Of a stretch of 64,000 bases of DNA, positions 27,759-39,785 are shown piece by piece. The stretch lies in NCBI GenBank assembly GCA_030039755.1, contig JASHUY010000074.1, positions 1 through 64,000 on the forward strand. Direction: 5' to 3'. A program made the position numbers and the translations under genes. The first letter of the stretch is position 1, and each line of letters begins with the position of its first letter. The notes under the pieces are model-generated. The model was not told the origin of the DNA. It did not search any database and worked only from the letters and a program-made list of their open reading frames with translations. The DNA is from Acidimicrobiales bacterium (GTDB taxonomy: Bacteria; Actinomycetota; Acidimicrobiia; Acidimicrobiales; RAAP-2).

Positions 27759-29849
27759 TCAGTGGATCCCGGCCGGACCGACGATGCACACGTCGATCAG
27801 TTTGATGAGCACGAACGGCGTGATGAGACCGCCGACGCCGTAGATGAGCAGGTTCCGGCGGAGCTGGCGCGTCGCGTCCATCGCCTTCACCCGGACGCCG
27901 CGCAACGCCAGCGGGATCATGAGCACGATGATGATCGCGTTGAAGATGACGGCGGACAGGATCGCGGACTGAGGCGTGTGCAGATGCAGGATGTCGAGGT
28001 CGGTGAGTGCCGGGAAGACACCGTGCAGCATCGCCGGGATGGCGATGAAGTACTTCGCGACGTCGTTCGTGATGGAGAACGTCGTCAACGCGCCCCGGGT
28101 GATGAGCAGCTGTTTGCCGACCTCGACGACGTCCATGATCTTCGTGGGGTTGCTGTCGAGGTCCACCATGTTCCCGGCCTCCTTTGCGGCCTGGGTCCCG
28201 GTGTTCATCGCGACGCCCACGTCGGCGAGCGCGAGCGCCGGCGCGTCGTTGGTGCCGTCGCCGGTCATCGCCACGAGCTGCCCGCCGGCCTGCTCGCGGC
28301 GGATCCTCTTCATCTTGTCCTCGGGCGTCGCCTCGGCCATGAACTCGTCGACGCCCGCCTCCTTGGCGATGGCGGCGGCGGTGAGCGGGTTGTCACCGGT
28401 GACCATGACCGTCCTGATGCCGAGGGCGCGCATCTCTGCGAACTTCTGCGCGATACCCGGCTTGACGGTGTCCTTCAGGTGCACGACGCCGAGCACCCTC
28501 GGCCCCTCGGCCACGACGAGCGGCGTGCCACCGTCCTTGGCGATGCGCTCGACGACCGGTGCGAGGTCGTCCGGGACGGTGCCGCCCTGTTCCTCCACCC
28601 AGGCGCGCACGGCGTCGCTCGCTCCCTTGCGGATCGAGCGACCGTCCCATTCGATCCCCGACATCCGGGTCTGGGCCGTGAAGGGGACGAGCGACGCGCC
28701 GGGGGTGTCCGGCGCGCGCACGTCGTAGGTGAGCTCGGCGAGGTCGACGATCGAGCGCCCCTCGGGGGTGTCGTCGGACAGGGACGACAACAGGGCCGCG
28801 TCCGCGAGCTGTCGCTCCGTGACGCCGGCCACCGGGATCAGCTCGGACGCGATCCGGTTGCCGTAGGTGATGGTGCCGGTCTTGTCCAGGAGAAGCGTGG
28901 TCACGTCTCCTGCCGCCTCCACCGCGCGTCCGGACGTGGCGAGGACGTTGTGCTGCACCATGCGGTCCATCCCGGCGATGCCGATCGCCGAGAGGAGCGC
29001 CCCGATCGTCGTCGGGGACAACAGGACCAGGAGCGCGACGAGCAGGATGATCGGCTGCGGCGAGTGCGAGTAGATGGCGAACGGCTGGAAGGTCGACACG
29101 GCCACGATGAAGATGAAGGTCAGGCTCACCAGCACGACCTGCAGCGCCAGCTCGTTCGGCGTCTTCTGGCGGTTCGCGCCCTCGACCAGCGAGATCATCC
29201 GGTCCAGGAACGTCTCGCCGGGCTTGGCGGTGATCTGCACGACCAGCCGGTCGGAGAGCACCCGGGTGCCACCCGTCACCGCAGACCGGTCACCCCCAGC
29301 CTCACGGATGACCGGTGCCGACTCGCCGGTGATCGCCGACTCGTCGACGAGCGCCGTCCCCTCCACGACGTCACCGTCGCCCGGGATCAGCTCGCCGGCG
29401 TCGACCACGCACCGGTCCCCCACCTTCAACTCCGCCGACGCCCGGTCGACCGTCGACCCGTCCGGGAGGAGGACGTGGCCCACCGTCTCCTGGCGGGACC
29501 GCCGCAGCGTGTCCGCCTGCGCCTTCCCGCGACCTTCCGCCATCGCGTCGGCGAAGGTGGAGAACAACACGGTCAACCACAACCACAGGACCACCAGGCC
29601 CGAGAAGACGTTGTTGGCCGCCGTCGTGTGGGGCGCGTCGCGCAGGAAGATGACCGACGTCCAGATGCTCCCCACGTACACCACGAAGATGACCGGCTTC
29701 TTGATCATGTAGCGCGGGTCGAGCTTCAAGAAGGTGTCGACGAGGGCGCGCCGCACGATCGGGCCGTTGAAGAGCGAGACCCCGCGCGTCGGTCGGTTCG
29801 GCTTTTGCGGGGGAGCCGACTCAGGCGGTGCCAGCGTTCCGATGGTCAT
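27759..29849 (-). CDS. kdpB: Potassium-transporting P-type ATPase catalytic subunit KdpB
   Basis: A 696-residue P-type ATPase. The actuator loop is present ([19 protein letters not shown]), the phosphorylated Asp lies in [13 protein letters not shown], the nucleotide domain has KGASDAV and [12 protein letters not shown], and the hinge is [23 protein letters not shown]. Helices flank as in the Kdp clade, with [10 protein letters not shown] near the C-terminus. The N-terminus (about 35 residues) is Pro-rich and variable. It energises K+ transfer from KdpA into the cell and follows kdpA with a 10-bp gap. Confidence 0.95.
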
Positions 29850-29859
29850 TTCTCAGTTC

Positions 29860-31611
29860 CTACAGTCCGAAGTGGCCCGCGAAGTGCTCGGCGAGAGGAC
29901 CGAGCGCCAGGGCGGGGAAGTACGTGAGCCCAACCAGAATGATCACGATGCCCATCAGCATGACCGCGAAGAGCGGCTTGTCCGTTCGCAACGTTCCAGC
30001 CGTCACCGCGTAGGTCCGCTTCCTGACGAGCGACCCGGCCAAGGCGAGCGCGGGGATGATCTCGAAGTACCGACCGATCCACATGCAGAGAGCGAGCGAG
30101 AAGTTGTACCAGTTCGTGTTGCCGTCGAAGCCCGCGAACGCCGACCCGTTGTTGTGCGCCGCCGAGGTGAACGCGTAGACGATCTCGGTCAGGCCGTGTG
30201 GCCCGGTCGTCGATATCGAACTCGCGGTGGACGGGACCAGGATGGAGATGCTGGCAAGCACGAGCACCGTCGCCGGCAGCACGAGGATGTAGATGGCGGC
30301 CAGTTTCATATCTCGTGCCGTGATCTGTTTACCGAGGTACATCGGCGTTCGTCCGACCATGAGGCTGCCTATGAAGACGCCTATCAAGACGAATATCAAC
30401 ATGCCGTACAACCCGGTGCCCGTTCCCCCGGGGATCACCTCCCCGAGCATCATGTTGAAGAGCGGCACGGCGCCGCCGATGGGCGTGTAGCTCTCTTCGG
30501 CCGAGTTCACGCCACCGGTGGAGGTGGCGGTGATGGCGGCCGCATTGAGCGCGGATCCCGTGGTGCCGAGTCGAATGTCCTTGCCTTCCAGGTTGCCTCC
30601 TGGATTGGTCGACGTGATCGACTGACTGACGCCGGCGTAGTTCAGCTTCACGTTCCCCCGGGCCTCGAGCGGCGCCACGATGAGGATCGAGATCGTGAAG
30701 AGGATCGCCATCGCGCTCAGGACCACGGCCGCCTGACGCATCGACTTGATCATCTTGCCGAAGGTCCAGGCGAAGGCGAACGGGATCATGCACAACATCC
30801 AGAGGACGAGGATGTTCGTGAGGCCGTTCGGGTTCTCGAGGGCGTTCGCGAAGTTGGCGTCGAAGTACCCCCCACCGTTGTCGCCGAGGGCCTCGATCGG
30901 CGCCATGCTCGCCACCGGCCCTCGCGGCAGTGTCTGGGTGAGGGTCTTGACGCCGGTGGAGTGCGTCGTCTGCGCGGCGAGCATGGACAAGTGCGTGTCG
31001 GCCCCGAAGCTCTGGATCGCCCCCTGGCTCATCAGGATGATGGCGAAGATGAAGGCCAGCGGGATCAGGATCCTGGTGCAGGAGCGGACCGTGTCGACCC
31101 AGAAGGTGCCGATGGTCGTCTGCCGGCGCCTGATCAGCGCGCGGATGAACGCTGCGGCCAGTGCCATCCCGACCGCTGCCGAGATGAACTGGTGCCAGAC
31201 GAGCCCGAACATCTGGCTCAGCTGGCTCATCGTGTTCTCGCCCGCGTAGTTCTGCCAGTTCGTGTTGGTCATGAAGCTGATCGTCGTGTTGAACGACAGC
31301 CCCGACGGAACACCCGGGAAGTGGTTCGGGTCGGCCGGCAGATGCGCCTGGACCCTCAGGATCAGGTAGGTGAGGAGCCCGCCGACGAGCGTGTAGACGA
31401 GGAGCGACATGAGGTAGCTCCGCCACCGCTGCTCGCGGTCGGGGTCGATGCGGCAGATCCGGTAGGTGAACCGCTCGATCGGCAGGAAGAACCGGTCGCC
31501 GGGCGCGTGCCCTCCGGAGTAGACCTTGGCCATGTAGTTGCCGAGGAGCGGCGTGCTGACGGCGAGCAGCGCCAGGAAGAAGACGATCTCGGCCCAGCTG
31601 GAACCGGACAT
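29860..31611 (-). CDS. kdpA: Potassium-transporting ATPase K+-binding subunit KdpA
   Basis: A 583-residue polytopic protein of the K+-transporter superfamily. Selectivity-filter-type segments are visible: GLSFNTTISFMTNTNWQNYAG (first), GDNGGGYFDANFANALENP (second), FTSAAHNNGSAFAGF (later) and VGRTPMYLGKQI. Ten hydrophobic helices are expected. The start ATG lies immediately before the kdpF stop region on the minus strand, so translation is coupled. The length and motif order match complete KdpA proteins. Confidence 0.95.
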   Translation of the reverse strand: MSGSSWAEIVFFLALLAVSTPLLGNYMAKVYSGGHAPGDRFFLPIERFTYRICRIDPDREQRWRSYLMSLLVYTLVGGLLTYLILRVQAHLPADPNHFPGVPSGLSFNTTISFMTNTNWQNYAGENTMSQLSQMFGLVWHQFISAAVGMALAAAFIRALIRRRQTTIGTFWVDTVRSCTRILIPLAFIFAIILMSQGAIQSFGADTHLSMLAAQTTHSTGVKTLTQTLPRGPVASMAPIEALGDNGGGYFDANFANALENPNGLTNILVLWMLCMIPFAFAWTFGKMIKSMRQAAVVLSAMAILFTISILIVAPLEARGNVKLNYAGVSQSITSTNPGGNLEGKDIRLGTTGSALNAAAITATSTGGVNSAEESYTPIGGAVPLFNMMLGEVIPGGTGTGLYGMLIFVLIGVFIGSLMVGRTPMYLGKQITARDMKLAAIYILVLPATVLVLASISILVPSTASSISTTGPHGLTEIVYAFTSAAHNNGSAFAGFDGNTNWYNFSLALCMWIGRYFEIIPALALAGSLVRKRTYAVTAGTLRTDKPLFAVMLMGIVIILVGLTYFPALALGPLAEHFAGHFGL

Positions 31612-31728
31612 CTAGAAATGCTCCGGCTTGATGAGGACGTAGACCAGGTAGACGGCCAGAAGGACTGCCACGATGATGGCGACGAGGTCGTCGCCACTGA
31701 TCGCCCAGCCGAAGATGGCGATGAGCAT
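31612..31728 (-). CDS. kdpF: Small Kdp subunit KdpF
   Basis: A 38-residue single-helix peptide: a short N-terminus, a membrane span (AIIVAVLLAVYLVYVLI) and the conserved end KPEHF followed directly by the stop. The KPE-F ending and the position immediately upstream of kdpA identify KdpF, which stabilises the Kdp complex in the membrane. The ATG overlaps the stop of the preceding 55-residue gene (TGATG), and the TAG stop is immediately adjacent to the kdpA start. Confidence 0.9.
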   Translation of the reverse strand: MLIAIFGWAISGDDLVAIIVAVLLAVYLVYVLIKPEHF

Positions 31729-31895
31729 CAGGCCGCCACCTCGTCGACGTCGGCTTCGGCCTCCACGCCGATTCGCTCCGACTCCTCGGCGATCGCCTCG
31801 TCGTCCGACCCGATGAGGTGGTCGCAGAAGATGACGAAGAGAATCGCAAGGAGCGTGAAGCCGAGAATGATCGCAACGTAGATGACGTCGTCCAC
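31728..31895 (-). CDS. Small single-helix membrane protein at the head of the kdp operon
   Basis: A 55-residue peptide starting at a GTG with a strong GGAGGAG site. It has one membrane helix (VIYVAIILGFTLLAILFVIF, residues 3-22) followed by a very acidic cytoplasmic tail (DDEAIAEESERIGVEAEADVDE). Its stop overlaps the kdpF start, so it is translated with the operon. Small membrane genes at this position occur in other actinobacterial kdp operons, but I know of no assigned function. An accessory subunit or leader role for KdpFABC is inferred from context. An ATG further upstream would add an implausible non-hydrophobic N-terminus. Confidence 0.75.
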   Translation of the reverse strand: MDDVIYVAIILGFTLLAILFVIFCDHLIGSDDEAIAEESERIGVEAEADVDEVAA

Positions 31896-31949
31896 AGCTC
31901 CTCCAACCAATGTGTGCTCGAGCGGTCCTGCTCGCTGCAACGGCAAGCG

Positions 31950-31962
31950 TAAGGATCTCTTA
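31950..31962. promoter_or_regulatory. Candidate KdpE site or operator upstream of the kdp operon
   Basis: TAAG-GATCT-CTTA forms a short inverted repeat about 55 bases before the first kdp-operon start codon, in a locally A/T-richer segment of the 220-bp gap. KdpE is the obvious candidate binder because it is encoded in the same operon. This is inferred from position and symmetry only. Confidence 0.3.
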
Positions 31963-32224
31963 GTGGAGGCGGAATACCTTTAGCGCGTCCTTGATGGGCA
32001 ACGCTCGGACTTTTGCGCGCCCTTAGCGCGCTTCGCACGCTTCGCGCGGCCGGGTCGCTTGACGGTCCCGCGGTGCGGCGAACGTGCGGTGTCGGCGCAG
32101 GACCCCGCGACGTCAGGCCGAGAGCCGCGATCGGTCTGCCGACGAGGGGGTCCCGCGCAACAGCGACGTCAATTCGGTCGCCGGGCGCGTCAACAGAACA
32201 GAAACGGAGACTCTCGGGCGGAGC

Positions 32225-33004
32225 TCAGCCGTCGCCGTCTTGAACGGCGCCGATCAAGGGGACCTGCGCATCCTCCACCACGGACCAGCTCACGGAGCTC
32301 ACACCGGGCTCGAGACTGAGACGGCTGACCGCGGCTTCGAGGGCGACGTCGTCCCGCCCGTTGAGGCCGATCTCGGCCTCCACCATGACGAGGTCGCCGC
32401 CTTCGATGTCGCTGCTGCGGATCGCCCGCAGGTGGAACTCGCCGTTCGTGAGCGTCTGGACGATGAGCGCACGGACGTGTGCTTCGTGCTTGGCCCGGCA
32501 CACCGCCCGGAACCGGTACACGGTCTGCAGCTCGTCGGCCATCGGAAGACTGTCGATGTGGCGGGCGACGGGACGGAGCAGGAGGTGGACCGAGACGACG
32601 AGAATCGCCCCGATCGTGGCTTCCACCGGGTACCCGGCGCCTGCCAGGGTGCCGACGGCGGCGGAGCACCAGATGGTGGCGGCCGTGTTGATGCCACGGA
32701 CGTTGACCCCGTCGCGCAGGATCACGCCCGCCCCGAGGAATCCGACCCCGGACACGATGTAGGCCGCGATGCGGGTCGGGTCGGCTCCGTGCATGCCCTC
32801 GAGGAACACCGAGAGGAGCTCGAAGAGGGAGGCGCCCAGGGCAACCAGGGCGTTGGTGCGCAGGCCGGCACCGCGTTGGCGCCATTGGCGCTCCGCGCCG
32901 ATGACGGCACCGAGCGCCACCGCCAAGAGGGCTCGGCCGGCGAAGTACACCGTCTCCGAGGTGGAGATCGATGAGCCGAAGCTGCTCAAACCGCTGCTCA
33001 TCAC
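32225..33004 (-). CDS. MgtC/SapB-family membrane protein
   Basis: A 259-residue protein. The N-terminal half is the MgtC membrane domain: GRALLAVALGAVIGAERQWRQ, GLRTNALVALGASLF, YIVSGVGFLGAGVILRDG, VRGINTAATIWCSAAVG and a further helix to about residue 150. The C-terminal cytoplasmic part (about 165-259) is ACT-like, as in larger MgtC proteins. MgtC family members support growth at low Mg2+ and modulate membrane ATP synthase. Its ATG overlaps the end of the universal stress protein gene, which in turn follows an NRAMP-like gene, so a divalent-cation role fits. Confidence 0.88.
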   Translation of the reverse strand: MMSSGLSSFGSSISTSETVYFAGRALLAVALGAVIGAERQWRQRGAGLRTNALVALGASLFELLSVFLEGMHGADPTRIAAYIVSGVGFLGAGVILRDGVNVRGINTAATIWCSAAVGTLAGAGYPVEATIGAILVVSVHLLLRPVARHIDSLPMADELQTVYRFRAVCRAKHEAHVRALIVQTLTNGEFHLRAIRSSDIEGGDLVMVEAEIGLNGRDDVALEAAVSRLSLEPGVSSVSWSVVEDAQVPLIGAVQDGDG

Positions 33005-33555
33005 GGACCTCTCGGGGACAGGCGAGGCGCGGCCGACCTCGTCGTGTCCCGCCCCGGCGTGACGGGTCGCGCACTCGCGGGGCGCGAAGGGCCCTTGGCC
33101 GACGGGTCATTGCGTGGTCCCTCCCGGTGCGGAACCAGCACGAGAGGGCAAGGAGCGCGGTGGATGACCGCGTAGTCGGTCGAGCCCGCGAGGACGCCCA
33201 TGATCCCGGGAGCGCCCGAGGAGCCGAGCACGAGGAGGTCGGCGCCTCGAGCCGCGTCCACCAGGACGTCCACCGGCCGGCCCCTCATGACGGAGCTCCT
33301 CACCCGCACCTTCTCGTCCGGGTCGAGCTGCGCGGCGATCGCTTGGTCGAGCTCCGCCTGGGCGTCGGTGGCGATCTCGGCGGCGGGGACGCGGACGAGC
33401 GGGGAGTAGGGAACCGGCATCGGGACCTCGAACGCGTGGAAGACCTCGACGATCGCTCTCGTCAGGCGCGCCTGCCGGATCGCCCATCTCAATGCGGCGA
33501 CGCTCACCTCGGAGTCGTCCATCCCGACGACGATCCTTCGTGTCCTTTGGGCCAT
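33001..33555 (-). CDS. Universal stress protein (UspA family)
   Basis: A 184-residue protein. The alpha/beta core spans about residues 7-140, starting RIVVGMDDSEVSVAALRWAI. The nucleotide-binding signature is LVLGSSGAPGIMGVLAGSTDYAVIHRAPCPLVLV, read as G-x2-G then a Gly-Ser pair. The C-terminal 40 residues are basic, Pro/Arg-rich and probably unstructured, which is longer than usual. It sits 28 bp after the NRAMP-like gene and overlaps mgtC by 4 bp, so it is probably co-expressed with metal transport genes. Confidence 0.88.
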   Translation of the reverse strand: MAQRTRRIVVGMDDSEVSVAALRWAIRQARLTRAIVEVFHAFEVPMPVPYSPLVRVPAAEIATDAQAELDQAIAAQLDPDEKVRVRSSVMRGRPVDVLVDAARGADLLVLGSSGAPGIMGVLAGSTDYAVIHRAPCPLVLVPHREGPRNDPSAKGPSRPASARPVTPGRDTTRSAAPRLSPRGP

Positions 33556-33583
33556 GGCGCCTTCTTTCCGTCGCCCGGTCCCG

Positions 33584-35343
33584 TCAGTGGACGAAACCGC
33601 TGAAGAGCTTGACCGCGACGAGAACCGCCGCGATCACGAGGTACCCGCGAAGGGTCAGAAGGCCCAGTCTCCGCATGCTCGACATCTTGGGAGCAGCCAG
33701 CAGCTCGAGGCGTGGCATTCGCCACGTCTTGCGGTCGAGCTCGCGGACGTCCGCCAACCTGTCGCGTGATCCCCCGGCCTTCACCCGCCGCGACCGCATG
33801 ATCAGAAGTGCGGGCGTGACGACGAACAGCGCGACGGCGAAGCCCGCCGCGAAGAAGACCTCGGTAAGCAGCTTCCCCGAGACGGACGGGAACAGTGCGC
33901 TGACGACCAGGATGAAGCTCAGGATGACGAGCACGCCGACGATCGTGAAGACGAGGACGTTCTGCCACGACTTGTTGACCCAAGGGCCGAGCACGTCCTT
34001 GTCGTTGCACAGCAGCGCGAGGAACAACACCGCCGAGGGAAGCAGGATCCCCGCCAGGACCTGGACATACTCGGTCAGCACCCCGAGGAAATGGCTGCTC
34101 CCCAGAAGCACCACCGTGCACGCGAGGAGGATCTGCCCGCCGTACGCGGCATAGAAGAACGGCGCGGTCCGGATGTTGCGGTGCAGCGAGTGCTTCTTGT
34201 CGAAGCTGTCCCCGAACGCGTAGGACGTGGCCAGCGACACCGCGCCCGCCCCGATCAGGGCCGCGAACAGCAGCATCAACGCGGCGAGTGGCCGGCGGTG
34301 TGGCCCATCGTGGCGCGGATGGCGTCGTCGAACCAGCCCGAGTCCGTGTACGTGGCGGATCGGCCGTAGAGCCTGGTGCCGTTGAGGGCCATGGCGGCGA
34401 AGATGATCATTCCTGCTGCGGCGACGGTCGTGATGATGCAGCCGAAGAACGTGTCGGCTCGCTCGTAGCCGAGCCAGCGGGGTGAGATCCTCTTGTCCAG
34501 GATGTTGGACTGCTGGAAGAACAGCTGCCAGGGTGCCACCGTCGTGCCGACGATGGCGACGATGAGAAGGATGGCTGCGCTCGACACGCCGCCTTCGACG
34601 CCCGGGATGACGAATCCGTGCACGACGGGCCCCGCAGTCGGGTGCGACATCACGACGAGGGGCACGAAGACGAAGCTGCCCACGATGAGAAGGAACATCG
34701 CCCTCTCCCAGCGCCGGAAGCTGCCGGTAGCGGCGAAGGTGAACATGAGCGCCCCTGCGGTGGGCACGCTCGCCCACTTCGACACGCCGAAGTAGGCCAG
34801 AGCGAAATTGACCCCGATGAACTCGGTCAGAAGCGTGAGGAAGTTCAAGACGAAGAGGTCTCCGACCGAGAAGAGGTTCCAGAACCTTCCGAAGCGCTCC
34901 CGGATGAGGCGGGCGTGGCCGACGCCGGTCACGGCGCCGAGCCGGGTGACCATCTCCTGGGCCGTGAAGAGCACGACGAAGAGGGCCAGCATCACCCACA
35001 GCATCGTGTCGCCGTACTGCTGACCCGCCTGGGTGTAGGTCTGCACGCCTCCGGCGTCGTTGTCCCCGACCATCACGATGATGCCGGGGCCCATGATGAC
35101 GGCGAACGTGAGGAAGCGCTTCAGCCACGTCGTGCGCGCGGCGCGGTCGCGCATCGAGATCGTGCCGAGCGACCCCCGGATGTCGCCGATGTGCTTCGGG
35201 TCCAGCACCGCCGGACCGAAGTCGAGGTCCCCGGCGTCGCGGAGGCGGGTGATGACACCGGCGCGGTCCTCGGCGAACTCCTCGTCGGTGATGGCGACGC
35301 CATCGTGCGCCCGGCCGGGCGGGGCGAGCTCCTTGTACGCCAT
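33584..35343 (-). pseudogene. NRAMP-family divalent metal transporter, frameshifted
   Basis: Two frames together encode one 586-residue NRAMP-like protein. The N-terminal part (MAYKELAPPG to IRATMGHTAG) covers TM1-TM7. Continuation PLAALMLLFAALIGAGAVSLATSY to the C-terminus lies in another frame. A one-base loss within the GGCC run near 34291-34296 explains the break, since restoring one base gives a whole number of codons. The paralogue at 36196-37869 aligns through the break. TM1 reads GDNDAGGVQTYTQ in place of the canonical DPGN, and TM6 reads VAPWQLFFQQS in place of MPHN, so it belongs to a divergent NRAMP clade. It is followed by usp and mgtC. It is either a true pseudogene or carries a sequence error. 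Confidence 0.8.
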
Positions 35344-35611
35344 GACAGTGCTCCTTTGCGAACACGACCCGTCCGCACCCTGACCTCGCGGTAAGTGGGC
35401 GCGACGGGACGAACCGAGCCCGGAGCGCGCGGAGACGCGGACTCAGGCTCGCCGAATTGGTGACGGTGGACGGCCGACGTCGTCACGACGTCTCAGGCTT
35501 CCAGGCGCCGAGCATGGGGCCCGGTGCTGTGCGCGACCGGCGCTGACGCCGCGCTGCGCAGGGAACCTACGCGCCGGGCTGCGGGCGGGTACCCGCAGGG
35601 TCAGGGAATCG

Positions 35612-35674
35612 TCAGACCGCCCTCGGTGACAGCCTGACGTCGGTACTGTGGGGTTTGTCGGGGTCCGAGCTCAC
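35612..35674 (-). CDS. Possible 20-residue leader peptide upstream of the NRAMP operon
   Basis: A GTG start preceded by an almost perfect ribosome-binding site (AAAGGAGGTGACA) opens a 20-codon frame, VSSDPDKPHSTDVRLSPRAV. About 270 bases separate its stop from the NRAMP-like ATG. The strength of the site relative to the tiny frame suggests a translated leader, perhaps for attenuation. There is no codon run that names an inducer. A chance frame cannot be excluded. Confidence 0.35.
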   Translation of the reverse strand: MSSDPDKPHSTDVRLSPRAV

Positions 35675-35746
35675 GACTGTCACCTCCTTTTGTCGATCTC
35701 CGGGCTTCGGTTGATCTCCGAGTCGTACGGGACGACCCCGTAGAAG

Positions 35747-35764
35747 CATGAACAGCTTATCATG
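35747..35764. promoter_or_regulatory. ArsR/SmtB-type operator candidate
   Basis: CATGAACAGCTTATCATG is an imperfect 18-bp palindrome (14 of 18 positions symmetrical) 42 bases before the arsR start and 72 bases before the leader-peptide start. It resembles the TGAACA-N2-3-TATTCA half-site pattern bound by SmtB/ArsR-family sensors. Placed between two divergent operons, it could control both. Confidence 0.55.
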
Positions 35765-35806
35765 GATTGTCAAGTCGGGTGACGCCGAAAGGTCGATGGT
35801 GACGCG

Positions 35807-36199
35807 ATGAAGCCGCGGCCGGCACCGGGTTCCGTCGGTGACGCGCTCGCAATCAGCAACCCGGTGGCGGAGCGACTCGCCGACACGATGTTCGCGCTCT
35901 CGACGCCGAGCCGGGTGTTGATCCTGGGGCGCCTCCTCGGTGGCTCCTGCTCGGTGAGCGACCTGACCGACGCGCTCGGCATGGAGCAGTCGGCGGTGTC
36001 CCACCAGCTGCGGGTGCTGCGTGAGCACAGTCTGGTGCGTGCGGAGAAGGTCGGGAGAAAACGTCTTTACGCCCTGTACGACGAGCACGTCGCCACGCTG
36101 CTCAAGGCCGGGCTGAAGCACGTCGACCGGGAGGGGCGTTCCCGTGCCCCGAAGACCCATCTCCACCGGGCTCGGGGCCCGGGCGGGGGTGCGTCGTGA
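35807..36199 (+). CDS. ArsR/SmtB-family metal-sensing repressor
   Basis: A 130-residue winged-helix regulator. The HTH is SVSDLTDALGMEQSAVSHQLRVLREHSLV, followed by the beta-wing EKVGRKRLYALYDEHV. The Cys-rich alpha3 site of ArsR/CadC (ELCVCDL) is absent (GSCSVSDL). The alpha5 helix reads DEHVATLLKAGLKHVDR, retaining Asp, His and a His 11 residues later of the D-x-H-x10-H-x2-H site used by NmtR/CzrA, with the last His replaced by Arg. Ni/Co/Zn-type or other divalent metal sensing is therefore likely. Its stop overlaps the downstream NRAMP-like start (GTGA), and an SmtB-like palindrome lies in its promoter. Confidence 0.85.
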   Translation: MKPRPAPGSVGDALAISNPVAERLADTMFALSTPSRVLILGRLLGGSCSVSDLTDALGMEQSAVSHQLRVLREHSLVRAEKVGRKRLYALYDEHVATLLKAGLKHVDREGRSRAPKTHLHRARGPGGGAS

Positions 36200-37869
36200 A
36201 CGTGACCACCGACGGCCGGCATCGGGTCGACCGCGCGGAGGCGGCCCTGACGCGCGCCTCCTTCGCGCCGCCCGGCGACCGTCGCTCGCTGTTGGACCGG
36301 GCACACCGCGGCGACATCATCGGCGCGCTCGGCAAGGTGGCTTCCGTCGACGCCGCACCTCGCAGCGGCGTGCGGCGGCGGTTGCTCGCGCTCCTGGCGG
36401 TGATGGGTCCCGGGGTCGTGGTACTGGTGGCCGACAACGACGCCGGGGGAATCTCCACCTACGCCCAGGTCGGTCAGGACTACGGCACGAGGTTCCTGTG
36501 GCTGCTCGCGATACTCAGCGCAGCACTTCTCGTCAACCAGGAGATGGTCGGACGCCTGGGCGCGGTGACGGGAGCGGGCCACGCCCGGTTGATCTTTGAG
36601 CGCTTCGGACGACGGTGGGGATCTTTCGCGCTCGCCGATCTGCTGGTGGTCAACTTCCTCCTCATCGTCACGGAGTTCATCGGCGTCGCCTTCGGGCTCG
36701 GGTACTTCGGCATAAGTCGAGACGTGTCGGTGCCGCTCGCCGCGCTCCTCCTGATCTCGGTCACCGCCACCGGCAGCTTCCGCCGCTGGGAGCGGGCGAT
36801 GTACCTGTTTGTCGTGCTCAGCCTCGCGGCGGTGCCTCTGGCAGTGGTCGCCCATTCGGGCGCCGGGACGGGGTCCTTTGGAGCTGCGACGGGGCGACTC
36901 CCAGCTGAAAGTCCCGTGCTCGTCGCCGTCGCGCTCGTCGGCACCACGGTGGCGCCGTGGCAGCTGTTCTTCCAGCAATCCAACGTCGTGGACAAGCGGA
37001 TCACCACCCGATGGCTCTCGTACGAGCGGGCGGACACCACCATCGGGACCGTGCTCTTCGTCGTGGGCGCCATCGCGGTTCTCACCGCCTGCGCGTTCGC
37101 GTTCGACGGCACCTCGCTCCACGGCGCGTACGTCGACGCCGGTACTCTGGCCGACGCCCTCCGCCACCGGGTCGGTGAGTGGGCCGGAGCATTGTTCGCC
37201 GTCATCCTGCTCAACGGCTCCATCCTCGGTGCCTGCGCCGTCACGCTCTCCACTTCGTACGCGATCGGGGACGCGAGCGGCACGAAGCACTCGCTTCACC
37301 GGTCCTGGCGCGACGCCCGCCGGTTCCATGGGAGTTATGCGGCACTCATCGTCCTCGCCGGCGCGATCGTGCTGATACCCGGAGCGCCTCTGGGCATCGT
37401 CACCCTGGGCGTCCAGGCGTTGGCGGGGATCCTCCTTCCCAGTGCACTGGTGTTCTTGCTCCTGCTGAGCAACGACCGAACCGTGCTCGGCCCCTGGGTC
37501 AACCCGCGGTGGCTCAACGTCGTCACCGGCGCGCTCGTGGCCGACTTTCTCGTCCTGTCCGGGCTGCTCGTGGTCTCGACCCTGTTTCCGAGCTTCGCGA
37601 CCGGATGGCCGGTCGCCATCTCCAGCCTTGCCGGCGCCGGTGCCCTGGGCGCGGTCGCAGGTTTCCGCCTCGGCCGCGGGACTGGTGACGGACACGCCTC
37701 CAACTCCGACGCGGCACGCCGCGACTGGTCGATGCCGCGGATCGACAGCCTGGCTCCACCGCTCACGTCTCGGGCCCGAACGGTCGGGCTCGTGCTGCTT
37801 CGCTCGTACCTGGTCCTTGCAGCGGTCGCGGTCATCGTGAAGGTCATCCGCTTGCTGGTCGGCGCATGA
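36196..37869 (+). CDS. NRAMP-family divalent cation transporter, non-canonical clade
   Basis: A 557-residue transporter with about 11-12 helices. TM1 is VMGPGVVVLVADNDAGGISTY, where the canonical metal-site DPGN is replaced by DNDAGG. TM6 is VGTTVAPWQLFFQQSN, where the canonical MPH with its thioether ligand is replaced by APW. Loss of that Met is a feature of NRAMP-related Mg2+ transporters, so Mg2+ or another hard cation is a reasonable guess. The first 55 residues are soluble and include the LDRAHRGDIIGALG segment. It is co-transcribed with the ArsR sensor (GTGA overlap) and is a paralogue of the frameshifted gene at 33584-35343. Confidence 0.85.
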   Translation: MNVTTDGRHRVDRAEAALTRASFAPPGDRRSLLDRAHRGDIIGALGKVASVDAAPRSGVRRRLLALLAVMGPGVVVLVADNDAGGISTYAQVGQDYGTRFLWLLAILSAALLVNQEMVGRLGAVTGAGHARLIFERFGRRWGSFALADLLVVNFLLIVTEFIGVAFGLGYFGISRDVSVPLAALLLISVTATGSFRRWERAMYLFVVLSLAAVPLAVVAHSGAGTGSFGAATGRLPAESPVLVAVALVGTTVAPWQLFFQQSNVVDKRITTRWLSYERADTTIGTVLFVVGAIAVLTACAFAFDGTSLHGAYVDAGTLADALRHRVGEWAGALFAVILLNGSILGACAVTLSTSYAIGDASGTKHSLHRSWRDARRFHGSYAALIVLAGAIVLIPGAPLGIVTLGVQALAGILLPSALVFLLLLSNDRTVLGPWVNPRWLNVVTGALVADFLVLSGLLVVSTLFPSFATGWPVAISSLAGAGALGAVAGFRLGRGTGDGHASNSDAARRDWSMPRIDSLAPPLTSRARTVGLVLLRSYLVLAAVAVIVKVIRLLVGA

Positions 37870-37893
37870 CGGGCGGGACCCCTCGACGGTGCC

Positions 37894-37961
37894 CCGCCGG
37901 CAGGGTCATGCCGCTGGCAGGGTCATCCCGCTGGCAGGGTCATCCCGCCGGCAGGGTCACG
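37894..37961. repeat. Four 17-bp tandem repeats between NRAMP and cupin genes
   Basis: Units of CCGCTGGCAGGGTCATC start at 37894, 37911, 37928 and 37945. The middle two are identical. The last unit includes the stop codon of the convergent cupin gene, and the array nearly fills the gap between the two 3' ends. Confidence 0.9.
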
Positions 37962-38319
37962 AGGTGGGCCACAGTGGTGGACACGGATCTTCCTGCGGAA
38001 GGCTCATCCAGTCGCCGCGCACGGGTGCATAGCACTCGGCCACCACCGCTCCTTCCTCACCGGCTGTGACATGGTGGGGGACGTCGGGGCCCACCCGCCA
38101 GGAGCCGCCGGGACCGAGCGTTCTCGTCTCGCCCCCGATGGTGAAGGTGAGCGCGCCTTCGATGACGAATCCCATCTGCTCGTTGTCATGCGTGTGCTCC
38201 GGGACGCGCTCACCCGGGCCGATCTCGACGATGGCAAGGGTCATTCTTTCGCCGTCGACGATTCTCGCCCTCACCCCTTCCCAGATCGATCGGGGATGCA
38301 CGTCGCGCAACTCGCTCAT
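37957..38319 (-). CDS. Cupin-domain protein
   Basis: A 120-residue single-domain cupin. Motif 1 is PEHTHDNEQMGFVIEGALTF, with the His-x-His and Glu metal ligands. Motif 2 is VGPDVPHHVTAGEEG, with the late His. Both motifs are complete, so a bound metal is likely. ATG at 38319 (MSELRDVHPRSIWEG) is preferred over longer options because the cupin strands begin soon after. Small cupins of this type serve as sugar isomerases, dioxygenases or ligand sensors, and nothing adjacent fixes the role. Confidence 0.8.
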   Translation of the reverse strand: MSELRDVHPRSIWEGVRARIVDGERMTLAIVEIGPGERVPEHTHDNEQMGFVIEGALTFTIGGETRTLGPGGSWRVGPDVPHHVTAGEEGAVVAECYAPVRGDWMSLPQEDPCPPLWPTS

Positions 38320-38435
38320 CGAAGTCACAGGATTCAAACCCTCAAACCCTCCCGTCCAACCTGCGGGCAACGACCGGGTGAACCCTATCCGCACGGGGGT
38401 CGTCCCCCCGTCAAGCCCGTGACCTCCGGGACGAG

Positions 38436-39785
38436 CTACGAGGCCAGCTCCTCATCGCGGCGCTCGAGCTTCAGCTGCCCCGTGTTCGCGTCGAAGTCGA
38501 AGAGCTCACCGAAACGTCCCCAGTCGATGGCGATCCTCATCTGCTCGCGCGCCTCCTCCTCGGAGAAACCCCGGCGCAACAGGTCGAGGAAGAACTCCTC
38601 GCTCAGCGTCCCGTCCTTCGTCGTCAGCAACGACTGGCAGATCGCCCGCACGAGCGGTGCCCGCTCGCGCGCGCGTTCGGCGAAGATCATCTTCGACTCG
38701 ACGATGTTGGCTGCGACGAACTTGCGGCCGTCTTCTGCAACCTGGATGTCGGCATCTTGCACCTCGGCCAGCCCCAACAGCTGGGCGGCGTCGACGAGGG
38801 GGAGGAGGTCGTCGACTTCGAAGGTCAAGGTGTGGGCAAGTTGCGGCAGGTCGTCGCGTCCGCCGTGTGCGATCAGGATCTCGAGGAGCCCGGACATGCC
38901 TCCCACCGTCGCCTGGGGAAGCGGGGTGTCGATCGGCGTCCCTTCCGGAGCCGGTGCCGCCGTCCAGATGTGCGCCGGCGGCCTCGTGTCCGGCCCGGTC
39001 ATGAGGGTGTAGATGTGGTCGACCAGCCCCTGGAAGGATTCATCGTGCCGTGCGCGCGGGTGGGGCAGGTGGCAGTCGATCTCGGTGCGGATGCGTCCCG
39101 GGTTCGCACCGAGGACGAAGATCCGGTCGGCCAGCAGCACCGCCTCTTCGATGTTGTGGGTCACGATGAGCATGGCCTTCGTCGGGAAATCCTTCTCCTG
39201 CCAGAGCCGCAGGAGCTCAGCCCGGAGGTTCTGCGCCGTGAGCACGTCGAGGGCCGAGAACGGCTCGTCCATCAGCAACGCCTCCGGCTCCACCACGAGT
39301 GCGCGGGCGAACCCGACCCGCTGGCGCATCCCACCCGAAAGCTCTCTCGGATAGGCGAGCTCGAAGCCGTCGAGGCCGATGGTGTCGATGGCACGCTCAG
39401 CCCGGGAGCGGCGGTCGGCGGGCGGGACGCCGAGGGCTTCCAGACCGAGCTCCACGTTCTGGCGGACGGTGAGCCACGGCAAGAGGGCAAAACTCTGGAA
39501 CACCATCGCGACACCCGGATTGGCGCCGTTGAGGGTCTGGCCGCGGTAGCGGACGATGCCCGAGGTCGGGGCGATCAACCCCGCGATACAGCGCAGAAGC
39601 GTGCTCTTGCCCGACCCGGAGCGCCCGAGAAGGGCGACGATCTCGCCTTCGCGTAAGTCGAGAGAGATGTCGTCGAGCACCGCGAGGGGACTGCCGTCGG
39701 GAGACACGAAGGACTTGGTGACGTGCGAGACCTCGATGATCGGTTCGGCTCCGCTCTTGTTCGGCGAATTCGCTGCCGAGGTCAC
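38436..39785 (-). CDS. ABC transporter ATP-binding protein with C-terminal AAA-associated domain
   Basis: A 449-residue protein. The ATPase half belongs to the nitrate/sulfonate/taurine class: Walker A GRSGSGKST, Q-loop VFQSFALLPWLTV, signature ELSGGMRQR, Walker B ALLMDEPFSALD and the H-loop His in THNIEEAV. After about residue 275 comes an additional helical domain (QATVGGMSGLLEILIAHGG to RRGFSEEEAREQM) of the AAA-associated type that is fused to some anion importers. The GTG start overlaps the stop of the permease gene (GTGA). No periplasmic binding protein gene accompanies the pair. Confidence 0.85.
   Translation of the reverse strand: MTSAANSPNKSGAEPIIEVSHVTKSFVSPDGSPLAVLDDISLDLREGEIVALLGRSGSGKSTLLRCIAGLIAPTSGIVRYRGQTLNGANPGVAMVFQSFALLPWLTVRQNVELGLEALGVPPADRRSRAERAIDTIGLDGFELAYPRELSGGMRQRVGFARALVVEPEALLMDEPFSALDVLTAQNLRAELLRLWQEKDFPTKAMLIVTHNIEEAVLLADRIFVLGANPGRIRTEIDCHLPHPRARHDESFQGLVDHIYTLMTGPDTRPPAHIWTAAPAPEGTPIDTPLPQATVGGMSGLLEILIAHGGRDDLPQLAHTLTFEVDDLLPLVDAAQLLGLAEVQDADIQVAEDGRKFVAANIVESKMIFAERARERAPLVRAICQSLLTTKDGTLSEEFFLDLLRRGFSEEEAREQMRIAIDWGRFGELFDFDANTGQLKLERRDEELAS

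Follow-up and report, generated by a model that had tools for sequence, protein, structure and literature searches.

NRAMP-related Mg2+ transporters (NRMTs) carry a DxxG-TxxA/T signature and transport Mg2+ and Mn2+, but not Ca2+, without proton coupling (Ramanadane 2022, PMC8806188). In the same family, described as NrmT, a gene encoding an MgtE N-terminal domain (MgtE_N) is commonly adjacent (Shin 2014, PMC4072509). NmtR of Mycobacterium tuberculosis binds Ni2+ through its N-terminal amine, His3, Asp91, His93, His104, and His107, and metal binding releases it from DNA, so that an efflux ATPase is de-repressed (PMC7055735). Leader-level control of Mg2+ genes is represented by Rv1805A, a conserved small upstream open reading frame (ORF) under M-box control in M. 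tuberculosis, whose function is unknown, which is reported to be mycobacteria-specific, and which has Pro7 in most of its peptides (2026 study, PMC12810186), and by mgtQ, whose Asp and Glu codons destabilize the ribosome, with the result that more of a Mg2+ transporter is translated (PMC8092293). Here, we describe a locus in which an NmtR-like arsR gene and a leader ORF lie in a control region between two NRMT genes. It lies in a stretch of 64,000 nucleotides (the window) from an Acidimicrobiales bacterium (contig JASHUY010000074.1, assembly GCA_030039755.1).

We consider it probable that this is a divergent divalent-cation locus, in which NRMT-type Mg2+ importers are controlled by an NmtR-like repressor acting on a shared operator and by an additional, Mg2+-linked control at the level of the leader. 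The transporters themselves are far less surprising than they first seemed, since their family is known; the leader-ORF family and the conserved pairing with an NmtR-like ArsR are new. The source assembly is 70% complete, and the GC content of the window is ~66-75%. The elements of the locus are as follows.

36196 to 37869, plus strand: NRMT-B, an NRMT homolog of the ArsR-linked clade (Pfam Nramp, 216 bits; EleNRMT, 7QIA, is the top PDB match)
33584 to 35343, minus strand: NRMT-A, a second NRMT with a 1-nt frameshift, in pieces 34276-35343 and 33584-34291 (Pfam Nramp, 182 and 45 bits)
35807 to 36199, plus strand: arsR, predicted to encode an NmtR-like ArsR/SmtB repressor (NCBIfam HTH_metalloreg, 79 bits; cut-off, 55)
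35748 to 35763, plus strand: candidate ArsR operator ATGAACAGCTTATCAT, 43 nt before the arsR start
35612 to 35674, minus strand: leader ORF VSSDPDKPHSTDVRLSPRAV, 20 codons, with 268 nt from its stop to the NRMT-A start
35683 to 35689, minus strand: Shine-Dalgarno sequence AAGGAGG of the leader ORF, which, together with its neighbors, could base-pair with the leader's 3' portion (35625-35632), with weak structural support

NRMT-A and NRMT-B are, as judged from their sequences, paralogous NRAMP-superfamily proteins of the NRMT family. In a phmmer search of the PDB, EleNRMT was the top match (214 bits), whereas canonical NRAMPs scored at most 46 bits. In transmembrane helix 1 (TM1), both proteins read DND-AGG, and DAGG aligns with EleNRMT D55-G58, the DxxG that replaces DxxN; in TM6, both read TTVAPW, and TTVA aligns with T224-A227, the TxxA/T that replaces A/CxxM. 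Identical equivalents of EleNRMT D55, G58, T224, A227, W229, E133, and Q379 are kept in A and B, and these residues were nearly always kept across 118 homologs. The alpha-6b histidine is replaced by Trp in both. Changes specific to the clade of NRMT-B (for example, V100A, F123L, and Y350H in EleNRMT numbering) spare the compared site residues. In the phylogenetic tree, DraNramp and BfraNramp fell outside, on the far side of a branch with 100% support; EleNRMT itself sits on a long branch. Because of the signature, the 7QIA match, and the position of canonical NRAMPs in the tree, we assign both proteins to the NRMTs, and because the signature is that of a known family, their metal site is not new. 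The substrate of both is likely Mg2+.

General models name the two proteins Nramp or divalent metal transporters, which would fit ordinary Mn2+/Fe2+ importers under a Mn/Zn-type regulator. We find this identity barely credible, and signature, scores, and tree all rule it out: the proteins have neither DxxN nor the site methionine, the curated cut-offs are far from reached (MntH, 78 versus 430 bits; nramp, 40 versus 272.5 bits), and canonical NRAMPs lie outside. An initial annotation of this DNA had noted that DPGN is replaced by DNDAGG and MPH by APW, had concluded that these are not classical NRAMPs, and had proposed a phylogeny against NRMTs as a check; all of this agrees with the present results. 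Its expectation that the proteins would not handle Mn/Fe like classical NRAMPs holds insofar as they are NRMTs that likely carry Mg2+, but NRMTs still carry Mn2+ (PMC8806188). It had also described two NRAMP paralogs around ArsR. The paralogy is borne out by the Pfam Nramp matches, but the NRMT-A reading frame is interrupted: loss of one base at ~34287-34290 leads to an in-frame TGA at 34276-34278, and the remainder of the protein is encoded in another frame. Since an ortholog that is 79% identical (L036:1020-2867) is intact, this frameshift reflects either a real lesion or a mistake in the assembly.

The ArsR protein passes the ArsR/SmtB metalloregulator model. Its closest solved relative is NmtR (2LKP), which matched at 138 bits with a family profile, compared with 89 for SmtB, and at 85.6 bits with the single ArsR sequence. 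The alpha-5 site D92-E-H94...H105 corresponds to NmtR Asp91, His93, and His104, so that three of the six NmtR ligand groups are kept. The fourth alpha-5 His and the N-terminal His of NmtR are missing, and for this reason the protein is classed by sequence as NmtR-like and not as NmtR. Among ArsR relatives that are not linked to NRMT genes and score above ~120 bits, most adjoin P1B-ATPase or CDF genes. In contrast to this arrangement, and to the efflux ATPase of the NmtR system, arsR in the window adjoins Mg2+-type transporter genes; no efflux gene was found beside it in the window, where NRMT genes lie on both sides, and among the loci that share the arrangement, a CDF gene is present only in L038.

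ArsR-NRMT-B appears from the comparison of loci to be a conserved module. NRMT-B begins within the end of arsR, its start overlapping the arsR stop codon by 4 nt in the ORF scan. Seven ArsR-adjacent NRMTs (the window, L036-L040, and L056) form one clade with support of 100/100; one further ArsR-adjacent NRMT (L107) stands elsewhere in the tree and is convergent. The closest NRMT-B homologs are those of L036 (Acidimicrobiales), L037 (Metallococcus carri), and L038 (Acidimicrobiia); the CDF gene of L038 is the divergent one there, giving the order CDF-arsR-nrmT. The module has a narrow distribution. Among 395 genomes of the class, it was seen only in the genome of the window and in G151, where it is apparently the L038 locus. 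The ArsR loci read from a sample of the phylum all lacked an adjacent NRMT. In the literature library searched, no paper named both NRMT and ArsR. The initial annotation was thus right to call the pairing unusual, and the D-x-H...H site that it read in ArsR is present.

The candidate operator ATGAACAGCTTATCAT occurs once in the window, versus 0.05 occurrences expected. A similar site stands in the same place in L036, and a weaker one in L037. The palindrome also resembles sites of the form ATGAACA-N4-TTCAT that precede efflux-linked NmtR-type loci (L150, L151, L152, L156, and L160).

Between the candidate operator and NRMT-A lies the leader ORF, which has a strong Shine-Dalgarno sequence. Both L036 and L037 have it too, and the differences in its first part are mostly synonymous. 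Leader and operator are retained in L037 even though the divergent NRMT there comes from a different clade. Leader-like ORFs also precede NRMT genes elsewhere, namely in same-family relatives, Solirubrobacterales, and others, covering several actinobacterial classes, and one precedes an MgtE_N-NRMT operon in G408. They share an acidic start, a P-x-S-T core, and the codons AGT ACC, and they lie 0.14-0.5 kb upstream of NRMT genes. A strict DNA-pattern scan across 397 genomes of the phylum returned only the window and four chance-like matches. In the 395 genomes of the class, most matches to a looser pattern were attributable to chance, as the reversed pattern produced similar numbers; two were genuine new members, L204 and L186/L215, the latter in front of an MgtE_N-NRMT operon. 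A further leader-like ORF, in L188, had no recognized Mg2+ gene nearby.

These short ORFs could instead be a by-product of a structured, non-coding RNA or of chance. In the core set, the nucleotides AGTACC never vary, and for most members one can draw hairpins in which the Shine-Dalgarno sequence is paired, as such an RNA would predict. We nevertheless judge this explanation unlikely. The Shine-Dalgarno sequence, start codon, and frame stay constant while the distance from start to core varies by whole codons (9, 12, 15, and 18 nt), and changes between close members are mostly synonymous. Among Shine-Dalgarno-bearing short ORFs before 114 NRMT genes, AGTACC was in frame in 13 loci, versus 1 and 2 in the shifted frames. 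Folding scores were unremarkable (z, -2.5 to +1.3, with one compensatory pair; no covariance model was built), and RNA structure was rejected as the chief cause of leader conservation. No Rfam family matched at the gathering threshold in ten leader loci. The window contained neither an M-box nor any other credible Rfam element, and the M-box was absent from 31000-38500 even at E values up to 1.

Several further ORFs resemble the leader. Possible divergent members precede NRMT genes at L074:5587 (MRSQPPNTTLLPV...), L054:5641 (MKRGEPPSSRLID...), and L089:5830 (MESDDPSSSTSARAL...), and these could widen the family if they belong to it. Upstream of MgtE_N genes, ORFs at L051:4403 and L063:2618 contain ...QPPST and the AGT ACC codons, with little or no Shine-Dalgarno sequence, and are possibly leaderless relatives.

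The locus shares features with each of the described leader types. M-box Mg2+ riboswitches precede related NRMTs in Mycobacterium and Kitasatospora (L102, L110, and L075). In NRMT-bearing loci of these genera, M-boxes were located at L102:5214-5435, L110:5236-5409, L108:2664-2847, L109:1091-917, and L075:11448-11268, and a short, Shine-Dalgarno-bearing ORF follows each of them. We used the ORFs read after these M-boxes for peptide comparison, and Rv1805A itself was compared by its description. In L109, the ORF is (x)SSDDSPYSRSTT... (SSDDSPYSRST), followed by a PE-like protein; in L108, it begins MSTSDKPPSAG. When 624 short ORFs were scored with the NRMT-leader profile, these two came 17th and 18th, just under the training set, and the other three of the five (L110, L102, and L075) were unremarkable. 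Homology of the leader family with some M-box ORFs is likely, although not proven by these peptide comparisons. Like Rv1805A (uORF2), the window leader ORF is short, has a Shine-Dalgarno sequence, lies in the leader of a Mg2+ gene, and shows a conserved N-terminal region with a proline. It differs in the lack of an M-box aptamer in the window, in its occurrence outside mycobacteria, and in the P-x-S-T core with invariant AGT ACC. With Salmonella mgtQ and other translation-aborting leaders, it shares a very short ORF, a strong Shine-Dalgarno sequence, acidic residues with an early proline, and a position upstream of or between Mg2+-transport genes. No sequence homology to mgtQ is claimed, and translation abortion with release of the downstream ribosome-binding site is suggested for the window leader by analogy only.

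Compared with NRMT/NrmT systems (EleNRMT; C. acetobutylicum Ca_c0685 and Ca_c3329), the window transporters have the DxxG-TxxA site, the His-to-Trp replacement, and strong sequence similarity in common. Relatives of A and B extend the likeness: MgtE_N-CBS companion genes adjoin most of the fetched homologs, and related genes are under M-box control. The window differs in that an NmtR-like arsR gene and a leader ORF stand in the control region enclosed by its two transporter genes, neither an M-box nor an adjacent MgtE_N gene accompanies A or B, and A is followed by usp and mgtC.

We propose that NRMT-A and NRMT-B would act as proton-independent importers of Mg2+ and, to some extent, Mn2+, as expected from their family and site residues. 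ArsR, encoded by the first gene of the arsR-nrmB operon, would most likely bind the palindrome at 35748-35763 between the divergent units and repress both. Ni2+, Co2+, or Zn2+ at D92/H94/H105 would release it, giving more Mg2+ import, together with more MgtC and Usp, when toxic divalent metals compete with Mg2+. Increased Mg2+ import under Ni, Co, or Zn excess would limit both Mg2+ displacement and competition for uptake. The NRMT-A unit would begin with the short translated leader, whose acidic and proline-rich start suggests a second, Mg2+-linked control through leader translation in the manner of mgtQ. If this is correct, Ni/Co/Zn stress and Mg2+ supply would be directly linked at the genetic level in lineages that couple Mg2+ import to a transition-metal sensor. 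In a broader form, for which we hold somewhat less than even expectation, Mg2+-linked leader peptides before NRMTs would be widespread in Actinobacteria, with Rv1805A as one branch, and the NmtR-like repressor would be added here so that import answers both Mg2+ shortage and transition-metal excess. The leader family would then extend the unexplained Rv1805A to several other actinobacterial classes and provide natural M-box-free versions in which its function could be tested.

Several observations weigh against the proposed model. The ArsR site is reduced, as NmtR His107 corresponds to R108 and the N-terminal His3 is absent (the N-terminus is MKPRPAP), and the module member L040 lacks the alpha-5 Asp; for these reasons, ArsR may now sense a different ligand. 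The operator motif was not recognized in module loci L038, L039, L040, and L056. NRMT-A is broken in the present assembly, neither A nor B adjoins an MgtE_N gene in the window, and folding support for the leader hairpin is weak. One might ask whether NRMT-B has instead changed its substrate and carries the transition metal that ArsR senses (Ni, Co, Zn, or Mn), which would make the module a transition-metal unit. The NmtR-like character of ArsR, the efflux genes beside its relatives, the divergent CDF efflux gene of one module member, and the transport of Mn2+ by NRMTs (PMC8806188) would all suit this possibility. It is nonetheless improbable, as the site residues of NRMT-B are all as in the Mg2+-carrying EleNRMT and are spared by the B-clade changes, and as NRMTs are importers, so that inducing import of the very toxic metal that is sensed makes little sense.

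The initial annotation had instead suggested that ArsR senses Mg2+ or another hard cation, in which case it would repress the importers when Mg2+ is plentiful. Its being encoded together with a Mg2+-type transporter and the loss of one of four alpha-5 ligands are compatible with such a sensor. The site itself does not support this proposal, as D-x-H...H is the standard alpha-5 transition-metal site of ArsR/SmtB proteins and the closest relatives are Ni/Co/Zn sensors, with the Ni/Co sensor NmtR as the closest solved one. Moreover, metal normally releases ArsR sensors, so Mg2+ would raise its own import. We consider Mg2+ sensing very unlikely, and the NmtR-like, transition-metal-responsive repressor remains our preferred interpretation.

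The proposed model also bears on Mg2+ supply in the lineage. Neither CorA nor the MgtE channel domain was found in the genome of the window (70% complete) or in 12 congeners; MgtA-type P-type ATPases were not searched for. Twelve of these 13 genomes encode a strong NRMT. Over 61 genomes, strong NRMTs and CorA/MgtE avoided each other (Fisher p = 1e-4), as did strong NRMTs and MgtE alone, which were never found together (0/34 versus 12/27, p = 1e-5); these genomes are related, so that the p-values overstate independence. Because neither CorA nor the MgtE channel was found, NRMTs may be the main Mg2+ importers of the lineage, replacing the usual ones, and, if so, actinobacterial lineages seemingly without CorA and MgtE depend on NRMTs for Mg2+. 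The incompleteness of the genome and the omission of MgtA from the search count against this conclusion.

Two more NRAMP-superfamily genes, C (contig C228) and D (contig C240), were found in the genome of the window; these genes, the leader ORF, and the operator-like site were absent from the initial annotation. NRMT-C (G000:C228:1-5051; L001/L175) immediately follows an MgtE_N-PRC-CBS-like gene, as in the companion arrangement published for NrmT, and no leader was found upstream of it. Protein D (G000:C240:16539-17771; L003/L176) has a hybrid site, with TM1 DTDAGS and TM6 AVVMPW: the methionine is kept, while Asn is replaced by Ser, His by Trp, and Gln379 by Glu. Two IMG/VR contigs (L182 and L183; ~108 kb) encode NRAMP-family proteins that are 35-38% identical to NRMT-B and are distantly NRMT-like.

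Downstream of NRMT-A, the minus-strand operon continues with two genes.

33001 to 33555, minus strand: usp, universal stress protein (Pfam Usp, 90.7 bits)
32225 to 33004, minus strand: mgtC, with MgtC and MgtC_SapB_C domains (PF02308, 128.8 bits; PF21770, 93.8 bits; both models over cut-off)

The order NRMT-A, usp, mgtC, with a 28-nt gap followed by a 4-nt overlap, is the NRAMP-led operon of the initial annotation, although mgtC (33004 to 32225) extends outside the interval 33001-37869 given there. Against the stricter NCBIfam MgtC family equivalog, MgtC scored 192.8 bits, under the cut-off of 255. Linkage to mgtC does not mark one NRMT clade, as NRMT-A of the window and the L037/L056/L075 clade are separate lineages in the tree. 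On the same strand after mgtC, within ~0.6 kb, are kdpB- and kdpA-like ORFs for K+ import (27759-31611, minus strand), and the K+ and Mg2+ import genes may be co-regulated.

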